DNA from: a bacterium
Lineage (GTDB): Bacteria; Hydrothermota; UBA3072; B12-G15
Length of the DNA: 25,380 nucleotides
Direction of reading: 5' to 3'
Assembly (NCBI GenBank): GCA_003646055.1
Contig: QNDZ01000004.1
Span: forward strand, 1-25,380
Shown here: positions 1,540 to 23,844 of the stretch, piece by piece
Numbering within the stretch: position 1 is the stretch's first letter
Layout: every line of letters starts with the position of its first letter
Translations under genes and position numbers: made by a program
Notes under the pieces: generated by a model
The model's input: the letters and a program-made list of their open reading frames with translations, nothing else
What the model was told of the DNA's origin: nothing
Databases searched by the model: none

Positions 1540-1552
1540 AATCTAACTTGAC
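1540..1552 (+). repeat. 13-base motif AATCTAACTTGAC, copy 2
   Basis: Identical to the minus-strand copy at 854-866. Here it overlaps the -35 element of ndk. Both copies are preceded by a T-rich stretch ending TTTTTTCA. Confidence 0.6.
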
Positions 1553-1575
1553 AAAATCATCATTCATAGTATCCT
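1548..1575 (+). promoter_or_regulatory. Promoter of the ndk-ackA-nfnAB operon
   Basis: A perfect -35 TTGACA at 1548-1553 lies exactly 35 bases before the ndk ATG. The -10 candidate is TATCCT at 1570-1575 after a 16-base spacer, leaving seven bases to the ATG. There is no Shine-Dalgarno, so transcription probably starts at or next to the start codon. Confidence 0.55.
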
Positions 1576-1582
1576 CAAAATC

Positions 1583-1999
1583 ATGGAAGAGACACTTTTA
1601 ATTATTAAACCCGATGGAGTTCAGAGAAACCTCATTGGAGAGGTTTTAAGGATTGTTGAGTCAAATGGTCTTCAAATCTTAAACATAAAAATGTTAAAAC
1701 TCTCACGGGAAAAGGCAGAGGAGTTTTACAGTGTCCATAAGGGTAAATTCTTCTTTGAGAGGCTTATCAACTTTATGATCTCTGGACCTGTTGTTGTTGT
1801 AAGGCTGAAGGGAGAAAATGCAGTGAACAAACTGAGGGAAATTATGGGAAAAACTGACCCCAAAGAGGCTGAACCTGGTACTATCAGAAGAATGTATGGA
1901 CTTGATGTAACACGGAACACGGTTCATGGTTCAGACACTCCAGAACATGCAAAACAGGAGATATATTTCTTTTTCGGGGAGGAGGCATGGGAAAGATAA
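1583..1999 (+). CDS. ndk: Nucleoside-diphosphate kinase
   Basis: Transfers the gamma-phosphate of ATP to other NDPs through a phosphohistidine. The 138-residue length is normal. The sequence opens EETLLIIKPDGVQRNLIGE, and the active-site segment NTVHGSDTPEHA places the phosphorylated histidine at His115. It is the first gene of a tightly packed operon; its last 13 bases overlap ackA. No ribosome-binding site precedes the ATG, and the promoter position suggests a leaderless message. Pairing with acetate kinase would spread ATP made by substrate-level phosphorylation to the other NTP pools (inference from context). Confidence 0.97.
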   Translation: MEETLLIIKPDGVQRNLIGEVLRIVESNGLQILNIKMLKLSREKAEEFYSVHKGKFFFERLINFMISGPVVVVRLKGENAVNKLREIMGKTDPKEAEPGTIRRMYGLDVTRNTVHGSDTPEHAKQEIYFFFGEEAWER

Positions 2000-3288
2000 T
2001 ACTAACCCTTAACTGTGGAAGTTCATCTGTAAAATATATGCTGTATGATTGGGATGAGAGGCTCCCCATTGCAAGGGGTATTGTTGAGAGGGTTACAATA
2101 GGAGGTTCATTCATCAAGCACGAGGTTTACAAAAAGGAGAAGGTGAAGATTGAAAGGGAATGCCCTACCCACAAAGAGGCCATAAACCTTATACTTGAGA
2201 TGCTCACCCATGAGAAGTATGGTGTTTTGAAGGACATAAAGGAAATATCCGCTGTGGGACACAGGGTTGTTCATGGTGGTGAGGCCTTTACAAAATCCGT
2301 AATCATTGACCAGAAGGTGCTTGATAAATTCAAGGAACTCTACGACCTTGCTCCACTCCACAATCCTCCCAATGTTATGGGGATTGAGGCAGCAATGGAA
2401 ATACTTCCTGACATCCCCCACATAGCAGTGATGGACACAGCCTTCCATCAAACAATGCCAGAGCATGCCTACATCTACGCTGTCCCATACAGATGGTACA
2501 GGGAATACGGTGTGAGGAGATATGGGTTTCATGGAACAAGCCACCTCTATGTATCACGCCGTGCTGCTGTGCTTCTCAATAAAAGGCCTGATGAGGTAAA
2601 TCTTATAACCTGCCACATAGGGAATGGAGCAAGCATTGCAGCCATCAGGAAGGGCATTTCAGTTGACACCTCAATGGGGTTCACACCCCTTGAAGGGGTT
2701 GTTATGGGAACACGTTCGGGTGACATTGACCCTGCAATCGTGGGATTCATATCTGAAAGGGAGAACCTCACTGCACAGGAGGTAATCACCATACTCAACA
2801 AAAAGAGCGGTGTTCTTGGAATTACTGAAAAATACACAGATAGGCGTGACATAGAGAATGCCATTGCAAGGGGTGATAAGAGGGCTTTACTTGCAATGAA
2901 GATTGAGGCTTACAGAATAAAAAAGTACATAGGTGCCTATATGGCAGTGCTTGGCCATGTGGATGCCATTGTTTTCACTGCAGGTGTTGGAGAGATGTGG
3001 CCTGAATTAAGGGAAGAGGTGCTGAAAGGTATGGAAAACCTCGGTGTCTATCTTGATAGAGAAAAAAATCTCAAAGCAAAGAACAGGAATAAAGAGTTCA
3101 TTGTATCAAAAGAAGACTCTCCAGTGAAGGTATTTGTAATACCCACTGATGAAGAAATTGTTTTTGTTGAGGATGTTGTTGCCCTTATGGAAGGCAGATA
3201 CGATGTCCATACAAAGTTTGAGTATTGTTTCCAGAAAAAGGAGTATGTGAACAAACTCAGGGAAGAGGCACTAAAAAAGGAGGCCTGA
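1987..3288 (+). CDS. ackA: Acetate kinase
   Basis: Converts acetyl phosphate plus ADP to acetate plus ATP, the last step of acetate fermentation. Family motifs appear in order: LNCGSSSVKY at the N-terminus, HRVVHGGE, HNPPN, MDTAFHQTMP, YGFHGTSH, CHIGNGAS, a DTSMGFTPLEG segment followed by TRSGDIDP, and FTAGVGE. At 433 residues it is about 30 longer than usual; the extra part is a charged C-terminal tail. The ATG overlaps the end of ndk and has a perfect GGAGG site. The TGA overlaps the next ATG by one base. A propionate or butyrate kinase is possible by homology but the motifs fit acetate kinase best. No phosphotransacetylase gene is visible nearby. Confidence 0.95.
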   Translation: MGKIILTLNCGSSSVKYMLYDWDERLPIARGIVERVTIGGSFIKHEVYKKEKVKIERECPTHKEAINLILEMLTHEKYGVLKDIKEISAVGHRVVHGGEAFTKSVIIDQKVLDKFKELYDLAPLHNPPNVMGIEAAMEILPDIPHIAVMDTAFHQTMPEHAYIYAVPYRWYREYGVRRYGFHGTSHLYVSRRAAVLLNKRPDEVNLITCHIGNGASIAAIRKGISVDTSMGFTPLEGVVMGTRSGDIDPAIVGFISERENLTAQEVITILNKKSGVLGITEKYTDRRDIENAIARGDKRALLAMKIEAYRIKKYIGAYMAVLGHVDAIVFTAGVGEMWPELREEVLKGMENLGVYLDREKNLKAKNRNKEFIVSKEDSPVKVFVIPTDEEIVFVEDVVALMEGRYDVHTKFEYCFQKKEYVNKLREEALKKEA

Positions 3289-22090: not shown

Positions 22091-22110
22091 AAATATTTTT
22101 AAAAAATCTT
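22091..22110 (+). promoter_or_regulatory. UP-element-like A/T tract
   Basis: A T tract then an A tract (AAATATTTTTAAAAAATC) ends 15 bases upstream of the -35 at 22121. A longer A/T palindrome lies just before it (about 22060-22083). The same T-tract/A-tract layout precedes the tRNA-Ala promoter. It probably aids RNA polymerase binding through the alpha subunit. Confidence 0.4.
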
Positions 22111-22120
22111 AACAAACCTG

Positions 22121-22149
22121 TTGACAATTTCAGAATATTTCTGTATAAA
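22121..22149 (+). promoter_or_regulatory. Promoter of pilB/gspE tandem genes
   Basis: Perfect -35 TTGACA at 22121-22126, 17-base spacer, -10 TATAAA at 22144-22149, then six bases to the ATG at 22156. No Shine-Dalgarno precedes the ATG. This is the clearest example in the window of a promoter placed for a leaderless message. Confidence 0.8.
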
Positions 22150-22155
22150 TAAGAT

Positions 22156-23844
22156 ATGAGGATAGGCAGAATGCTCCTGAAGGATGGAGTGATAAATGAG
22201 ACCCAGCTTCAAACTGCCCTGAAACGCCAGAGAGAACTTGGTGGAAGAATTGGGACACATTTTATTGAACTGGGGTATGTTAATGAGAAAACGCTGGTGA
22301 ATTATCTGTCAAAACAGTATGAAGTTCCCGGTGTTGCCCTCTCAGAATTCCCACTTGATAAAGAAGTGCTGAACATGATACCCCCTGAATTTGCACAGAA
22401 ATTCAATGTAATTCCCCTAAAAAGGGAAGGAAAGTATCTAACTGTTGCTATGATAAACCCCAAGGATGTATTTGCCATTGATGCAATCAGATTCAGAACA
22501 GGCCTTGATATTAAACCGGTTGTGGCATGTGAAAAGTCAATAAAAAAGATACTTGAGGAACATTACAAGACAAAGGCACTTGAGGACGAGGTGATGGAGG
22601 AAATGGGGCTTGAAGATGTCATTGAGGTTGTGGAGGAAGAGGAAGAGGAAAGGTTCAGCGACCTTGTTGCTCAGGTGGACTCTGGACCTGTTGTGAAATA
22701 TGTTAACTATCTATTGAGGAATGCAGTCAAGGAAAGAGCAAGTGACGTTCATATTGAGCCCTATGAAAAGGAAGTGAGGGTTAGATTCAGAATAGATGGG
22801 TTACTCCATGAGCATAAACCTCCACCATTGAAACTATTCAGGGCGGTTGTATCAAGGTTAAAAGTGATGGCAAAGTTGAAGATTCAGGAAAAGAGGCTTC
22901 CACAGGATGGAAGGTTTGAGGCAAGAATAGATGGAAGAAGGGTGGACTTCCGTATCTCCACCGTTCCAACCCTGTATGGTGAGAAGGTTGCATTGAGAAT
23001 CCTTGACAGGTCACAGGCCTCTTTTGATTTGAGAGACCTGGGATTTGAGGAGGAATCCCTGAACCACTTCTTAAAGGCATTGAAAAACCCATTTGGTATA
23101 ATACTCGTAACAGGCCCAACAGGTAGTGGTAAAACCACAACACTTTATGCAGCACTGAACGAGATAAATGACCCTGGAATAAATATCACGACTGCTGAAG
23201 ACCCTGTTGAGTACAGTTTGATGGGGATAAATCAACTTCAGGTGAATGAATCCATAGGCCTGACCTTCGCCTCAGCCCTGAGGGCTTATCTCAGGCAGGA
23301 CCCTGATGTCATAATGGTTGGAGAGATAAGGGATAAAACAACCACTGAGATTGCAATAAGGGCAGCACTCACTGGCCATCTTGTTTTATCCACGGTTCAC
23401 ACAAACTCTGCTGCTGCCACAATAACAAGGTTGATTAACATGGGCGTTGAACCATTCCTTATTGCATCAACCATCATAGTTGTTGTATCCCAGAGGCTTG
23501 TCAGGAAGATATGCACATCCTGTAAAACACCCCTGAAGATATCAGACGATGATCTGGTTAAGTATGGATTTGACCCTCAAGTTTTCAAAGGGAAAGAGAT
23601 ATTCCATGGAATTGGATGTGATAAATGTAAGAATACAGGTTATTCTGGAAGAATTGGACTTTTTGAAGTCCTGCCTATTACAAAGAGAATAAGGAATATG
23701 ATTCTTGACAGGGCTACTGATGACGAGATTGAGGCTGCTGCTGTGGAAGAGGGAATGATAACATTGAGGGAGGCAGGTATAAGAAAAATATTGCGTGGAG
23801 AAACAGACATTTTTGAAGTGGCAAAGGAAACCACACTGAGGTAA
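22156..23844 (+). CDS. Type IV pilus/type II secretion assembly ATPase (PilB/GspE family), first copy
   Basis: A 562-residue hexameric ATPase that powers pilin or pseudopilin polymerisation from the cytoplasmic side of the inner membrane. An N-terminal MshEN/T2SSE_N domain (1-140: RIGRMLLKDGVINETQLQTA, LGYVNEKTLVNYLSKQY) is joined by an acidic linker (about 143-168) to the core. Core motifs are DVHIEP, Walker A GPTGSGKTTT (320-329), the Asp box ITTAEDPVEY, Walker B DPDVIMVGEIRD (382-393) and the His box STVHTN. Four zinc cysteines lie at 453, 456, 488 and 491. Sequence alone does not separate pilus from secretion roles. First gene of the unit; no Shine-Dalgarno. Confidence 0.95.
   Translation: MRIGRMLLKDGVINETQLQTALKRQRELGGRIGTHFIELGYVNEKTLVNYLSKQYEVPGVALSEFPLDKEVLNMIPPEFAQKFNVIPLKREGKYLTVAMINPKDVFAIDAIRFRTGLDIKPVVACEKSIKKILEEHYKTKALEDEVMEEMGLEDVIEVVEEEEEERFSDLVAQVDSGPVVKYVNYLLRNAVKERASDVHIEPYEKEVRVRFRIDGLLHEHKPPPLKLFRAVVSRLKVMAKLKIQEKRLPQDGRFEARIDGRRVDFRISTVPTLYGEKVALRILDRSQASFDLRDLGFEEESLNHFLKALKNPFGIILVTGPTGSGKTTTLYAALNEINDPGINITTAEDPVEYSLMGINQLQVNESIGLTFASALRAYLRQDPDVIMVGEIRDKTTTEIAIRAALTGHLVLSTVHTNSAAATITRLINMGVEPFLIASTIIVVVSQRLVRKICTSCKTPLKISDDDLVKYGFDPQVFKGKEIFHGIGCDKCKNTGYSGRIGLFEVLPITKRIRNMILDRATDDEIEAAAVEEGMITLREAGIRKILRGETDIFEVAKETTLR

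Follow-up and report, generated by a model that had tools for sequence, protein, structure and literature searches.

The window analysed here is a stretch of 25,380 nucleotides (nt) of bacterial DNA (assembly GCA_003646055.1, contig QNDZ01000004.1, positions 1 to 25,380). It carries five genes, namely ndk, an rsmE-like RNA methyltransferase gene, ftsK, ade and a pilB/gspE-type ATPase gene, in which the −10 box of a promoter ends only 6–8 nt before the ATG and no Shine–Dalgarno (SD) core lies within the 20 nt that precede it. A preliminary description of the window had proposed that these promoters are placed for leaderless mRNAs, that is, messages that begin at the start codon. Its five promoter and start coordinates all proved correct, as did the absence of an SD site from the five genes. 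The features are listed below by position and strand, with the basis of each assignment in brackets; the promoter of a gene encoding a protein like elongation factor G (EF-G) is included as a leadered contrast.

1548..1575, plus strand: ndk promoter; −35 TTGACA at 1548–1553, spacer of 16 nt, −10 TATCCT at 1570–1575 (sequence and pattern match)
1583..1999, plus strand: ndk, nucleoside diphosphate kinase; ATG at 1583, 7 nt after the −10, no SD (Pfam NDK, 6.7e-55)
6890..6917, minus strand: rsmE promoter; −35 TTGCCC at 6917–6912, spacer of 16 nt, −10 TATAAT at 6895–6890 (sequence)
6242..6883, minus strand: rsmE-like RNA methyltransferase; ATG at 6883, 6 nt after the −10, no SD (Pfam Methyltrans_RNA, 1.3e-31)
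14392..14420, minus strand: ftsK promoter; −35 TTGACT at 14420–14415, spacer of 17 nt, −10 TAATAT at 14397–14392 (sequence and pattern match)
12103..14385, minus strand: ftsK; ATG at 14385, 6 nt after the −10, no SD (Pfam FtsK_SpoIIIE, 8.8e-57)
14463..14490, plus strand: ade promoter; weak −35 TTGCAT at 14463–14468, spacer of 16 nt, −10 TATCAT at 14485–14490 (sequence)
14499..16217, plus strand: ade, adenine deaminase; ATG at 14499, 8 nt after the −10, no SD (Pfam Adenine_deam_C, 3.2e-61)
22121..22149, plus strand: pilB/gspE promoter; −35 TTGACA at 22121–22126, spacer of 17 nt, −10 TATAAA at 22144–22149 (sequence and promoter model)
22156..23844, plus strand: pilB/gspE-type ATPase; ATG at 22156, 6 nt after the −10, no SD (Pfam T2SSE, 1.7e-140)
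21956..22000, minus strand: promoter of the EF-G-like gene; TTGACA at 22000–21995, spacer of 16 nt, TATAAT at 21978–21973, SD AGGAGG at 21961–21956, ATG at 21951 (sequence)

In ndk, ftsK and pilB the first base of the −35 box lies 35 nt from the ATG. Coding potential alone selects the same five start codons; the NDK match spans residues 2–134 of the window ndk protein, and the PUA match of the RsmE-like protein starts at residue 16. The EF-G-like gene has a promoter of the same kind, with its −10 ending 21 nt from the ATG and an AGGAGG between the two. The ndk promoter is retained in a relative of the same genus and in most relatives of the same class. The rsmE −35 (6917–6912) lies within the terminator stem (6930–6905) of the upstream gene, so that terminator, promoter and start codon occupy 50 nt; by eye, a similar hairpin reaches into the −10 of ndk at two loci in relatives (L118 and L121).

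For statistics we sampled 61 contigs, the window (contig C4) included, which together hold 835,610 bases or 45% of the 1.87-Mb assembly (277 contigs, 80.6% complete) and have a GC content of 41%. Genes were called from coding potential only, with no use of upstream signals, and of the 711 genes in the sample we tested 214 unit-leading genes, defined by an upstream gap limit of 70 nt, and 402 genes internal to units. The upstream gap of rsmE is below 70 nt and places it outside the unit-leading set. A −35/−10 dyad of TTGAC and TANNNT stands 4–9 nt upstream of 30 of the 179 unit-leading ATGs and of 39 of the 32,488 ATGs that were not called as starts (Fisher P = 3e-50). Before all 214 unit-leading starts, the dyad ends at 4–9 nt in 36 cases, at 10–16 nt in 4 and at 17–30 nt in 25; only 2 of the 402 internal genes have it at 4–9 nt. 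The 4 dyads at 10–16 nt compare with 12.5 expected from the rate at 17–30 nt (P = 0.005), and the commonest distance in the close class is 6 nt. Over the whole genome, a strict form of the dyad pattern matched 115 times and its reversed version 25 times. Logos of the genes without an SD, aligned on the ATG, are blurred by the variable spacing; the enrichment of −10 boxes at about −12 from the ATG in such genes, which the preliminary description had put forward as a check, is clear in the sampled genome.

The same division emerged from a promoter dyad model that was seeded with the Escherichia coli consensus and given no position preference. It converged on TTGACA and TATAAT with a spacer mostly of 16–17 nt, and divided the 214 unit-leading genes into 50 with a promoter at leaderless spacing, 69 with a promoter further upstream (leadered) and 95 with no promoter. 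Leaderless calls were made in 6 of the 402 internal genes and in none of 214 shuffled regions. The 50 include the four window genes other than rsmE, among them pilB, whose −10 ends in A and was therefore missed by the strict pattern. An SD core precedes 2 of the 50 leaderless genes (both weak, none strong) and 57 of the 69 leadered genes (Fisher P = 2.7e-19), in support of the earlier claim of two initiation modes sorted by gene. The leaders of genes with far promoters mostly carry an AAGGAGG-type site, and strong SD sites precede 84 of the 214 unit-leading and 225 of the 402 internal genes. ATG is the start codon of every leaderless gene (50 of 50), compared with 129 of the other 164 unit-leading genes. 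The five-gene observation, a close −10 without an SD, is thus real and beyond chance, and in about a quarter of the unit-leading genes in the sampled genome the promoter lies so close that the message likely begins at the start codon.

Sigma-70 RNA polymerase starts transcription about 7 nt past the −10 in E. coli, and on leaderless mRNAs elsewhere the ribosome binds the 5′ AUG directly. We consider it highly probable that the promoters of the five genes are placed for leaderless mRNA and that initiation there proceeds without SD pairing. A sigma-70-type promoter whose −10 ends 6–8 nt before the start codon would set the onset of transcription on, or within about 2 nt of, the ATG; transcription could then start on its A. 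Ribosomes would use the leaderless mode on such messages, binding the 5′ AUG directly, with no SD pairing. Promoters of this type also serve the leadered unit-leading genes, from a distance that is mostly at least 17 nt, and SD sites are used by many genes inside units as well. Leaders of about 4–10 nt would suit neither mode, and the scarcity of spacings of 10–16 nt fits this expectation.

The nearest competitor to leaderless placement accepts the promoters as real and has the messages begin 2–6 nt upstream of the ATG, giving very short leaders and a weak route through the 30S subunit. The spread of distances, which is 4–9 nt here and reaches 11 nt in two families of the phylum described below (f16 and f17), would allow this, as would the flexibility of start choice. 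With the modal distance of 6 nt, however, +1 coincides with the A of the ATG. The deficit at 10–16 nt also speaks against the proposal, and we regard such short leaders as improbable.

The preliminary description had further placed leaderless starts on core genes, which the gene content does not support. As a marker of core genes the leaderless class was rejected: Pfam scans of 30 of 46 leaderless and 30 of 52 leadered genes with a strong SD, all from outside the window, showed mixed classes. The 30 scanned leaderless genes include recG, tatC, two transposase genes of the IS200 type and one gene each for a response regulator, a protein kinase and a diguanylate cyclase; three further products belong to no Pfam family. 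The EF-G-like gene of the window is SD-led. By eye, and as an impression only, the SD-led set is richer in high-output and surface proteins (TonB receptors, Hsp20, transaldolase, aldehyde dehydrogenase). That tuf is SD-led is the reading of the preliminary description alone.

Comparison of orthologues suggests a tendency for each gene to retain its mode of initiation. We read ndk in 90 loci, the 30 best and 60 picked mainly for genus coverage, from the 129 genomes with a match: 37 are leaderless, 29 have an SD and 24 are unclassed, with the leaderless arrangement in 7 of 9 loci of the same class and in all 12 loci of family f26. In 30 of 30 loci the ndk orthologues align from residue 1–4 of the window protein. 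For ftsK, 8 of 8 loci of the class are leaderless (one with a weak SD-like core), as are 15 of the best 30 loci in the phylum, a rough figure since some starts are misplaced (at L156, for instance, the promoter stands at an upstream ATG). Leaderless too are 3 of 3 clear ade orthologues, the window gene counted, and 2 of 3 rsmE loci; clear orthologues of these two genes were not found in the other genomes of the class that were searched. An SD precedes the EF-G paralogue, by contrast, in 28 of 30 loci of relatives. The anti-SD motif CCTCC is present in 9 of 11 16S ribosomal RNA loci of relatives, so both modes of initiation could coexist.

At two ndk loci of family f16 (L257 and L296, from genomes G032 and G033) a tRNA-Leu(gag) gene reaches right up to the start codon. 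The ARAGORN models of these tRNAs (156–240, minus strand, and 212–297, plus strand) extend 2–3 nt into the ndk ATG, probably because CCA positions are counted, and 3′ processing of the tRNA would yield a nearly leaderless ndk mRNA.

The phylum of the window genome, which we take to be the one named WOR-3 in GTDB, includes Candidatus Hydrothermus pacificus (JdFR-72), filed under Caldifarciminota in the NCBI taxonomy. In 147 genomes of the phylum we counted pattern matches at leaderless (5–8 nt) and leadered (25–28 nt) spacing and found 19,914 and 7,270, respectively, compared with 2,323 for the reversed pattern. The leaderless count exceeds the leadered count in 136 of the 147 genomes, and in 93 it is twice as high or more. 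By family, the ratio of the two reaches 11-fold in f24 and is about one or less in f16, f19 and f11; the signal is strongest in f22, f24, f26, f30 and f31. The dyad model made leaderless calls in 24 of 61 unit-leading genes of an f26 genome (G072), 13 of 81 of an f22 genome (G058) and 28 of 70 of an f16 genome (G035), against 1 of 84, 2 of 73 and 8 of 68 internal genes and 0, 1 and 2 shuffled regions, respectively.

The low ratio in f16 arises because the TTGAC box is missing there, while a TANANT box adjoins the starts. In sampled stretches of f16 and f17 genomes, all of which lack the TTGAC box, TANANT ends 4–11 nt before 39 of 70 (G035), 13 of 23 (G034) and 15 of 21 (G039) unit-leading starts, so that 67 of 114 genes in total look leaderless; at a control distance of 24–31 nt the counts are 4, 4 and 1. 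The TTGAC pattern was accordingly rejected as a universal yardstick, for it calls f16 negative despite the 39 of 70 and 13 of 23 starts so equipped. Internal genes in the same three genomes also have a TANANT box of their own at 4–11 nt in 10 of 68, 2 of 30 and 6 of 27 cases, as if short intergenic gaps held promoters.

These boxes bear on a further alternative, which denies that the TA-rich box is a promoter and takes it for an AT-rich ribosome-binding signal of the non-SD kind known from Bacteroidetes. Signals of that kind exist in some genomes (as outlined in PMC9581028), and the f16/f17 box has no clear −35 partner and occurs before internal genes as well. In the genome of the window, however, the box is paired with TTGACA at 16–17 nt and rarely precedes any but unit-leading genes, and SD-led genes have this dyad too, further upstream; nor does this genome have the general absence of SD sites that marks the Bacteroidetes type, given the strong sites before more than half (225 of 402) of its internal genes. 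We therefore find this alternative very improbable. That the boxes are chance matches in an AT-rich genome, or stand before wrongly called starts, is hardly credible: the GC content of 41%, the 39 uncalled ATGs behind the loose pattern and the misplaced starts of some ftsK orthologues would be in its favour, but the contrast with the 30 of 179 called ATGs, the empty shuffled control, start calls made without upstream signals and the ndk alignments all oppose it.

Several observations nevertheless weigh against leaderless placement or its breadth. The distance from −10 to +1 is that of E. coli, and leadered promoters give an equivocal purine signal downstream of their −10. By the model 95 of the 214 unit-leading genes have no promoter, and 51 of those 95 also have no SD. 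No 16S gene was detectable in the assembly of the window genome, so the anti-SD was read from relatives, of whose 11 16S loci 2 are without the motif. Across the phylum, the leaderless count is not above the leadered count in 11 of the 147 genomes; in small samples there is no leaderless excess in f19 (1 of 13) or in f20, where 4 of 21 compare with 6 at the control distance, and only a weak one in f11 (6 of 26 against 3). Seven genomes outside the phylum set gave pattern and reversed counts of 5/7, 13/8, 14/7, 13/4, 20/38, 16/26 and 45/45. In three of these, titled Campbellbacteria and Nomurabacteria (G149, G150 and G151; loci L023–L025), the leaderless pattern is mildly more frequent than the reversed control (13/8, 14/7 and 13/4).

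Leaderless genes are a known phenomenon, and it is the phylum as their host that appears to be new. The comparisons that follow draw on excerpts of the papers cited. Genes led by a TA-type signal (TA-led, leaderless) were reported in 207 of 953 bacterial genomes, with peaks in Actinobacteria (about 20%) and Deinococcus-Thermus (about 40%) (Zheng et al. 2011, PMC3160421). The genes described here share with them a Pribnow-like signal about 10 nt upstream that replaces the SD, and a mixture with SD-led genes in one genome. They differ in that a good −35 TTGACA is also kept and that our counts concern unit-leading genes rather than all genes; the groups in section 7 of that paper omit this phylum. 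In Deinococcus-Thermus a −10 beside the open reading frame drives leaderless mRNA phylum-wide, as is proposed here, and in both cases SD sites form a second class (Zhong et al. 2025, PMC12340547); the arrangement was tested experimentally there and is read from sequence here. A GeneMarkS-2 survey (Lomsadze et al. 2018, as described in PMC9581028) put leaderless transcription in 21.6% of bacterial species, at up to 40% of transcripts; the mixed genomes that it describes combine leaderless and leadered transcription, as is predicted here from classes drawn without GeneMarkS-2. Transcription-start-site data gave 10–15% leaderless in two gut species (PMC4782308), and JdFR-72 is placed in the WOR-3 lineage in PMC12285271, which also deals with a cultured WOR-3 isolate, sy37. 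Our search of open-licence PMC papers listed no report of leaderless initiation in this phylum; the domain-wide survey of PMC12340547 (its Fig. S7) may include WOR-3 genomes.

A broader proposal, on which we judge the chances to be even, is that WOR-3 (Caldifarciminota) forms a third great leaderless lineage beside Actinobacteria and Deinococcus-Thermus. The mode would be ancestral, inherited gene by gene across families and the main one for unit-leading genes in f16 and f17, and would include the tRNA-processed, near-leaderless ndk of two f16 genomes. If so, a whole, almost uncultured phylum would join the bacteria in which leaderless and SD initiation occur side by side. Since its families span the range between no detectable excess and leaderless starts at most unit-leading genes, gains and losses would be traceable on one tree. 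Annotation of start codons and promoters in these genomes should model both modes. In the window genome, full TTGACA/TATAAT promoters occur in both classes and mainly their spacing from the ATG differs, which offers a clean natural series for the question of what makes a message leadered or not.

At two other loci (L049, 358/382, and L204, 3784/3833) back-to-back genes have 23 nt and 48 nt between their start codons and a leaderless-type −10 on both sides; at L049 the −35 of one gene lies within the first codons of the other. In the window, the surface-protein gene consists of two overlapping open reading frames in different frames (6934–8883 and 8718–10667), from a frameshift, an assembly error or the presence of two genes, and its C terminus gives a Por_Secre_tail match (PF18962) of 24.3 bits, below the cut-off of 27. 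Elsewhere, L001 (5562–9926, minus strand) encodes an anaerobic ribonucleotide reductase with internal LAGLIDADG and intein-splicing domains.

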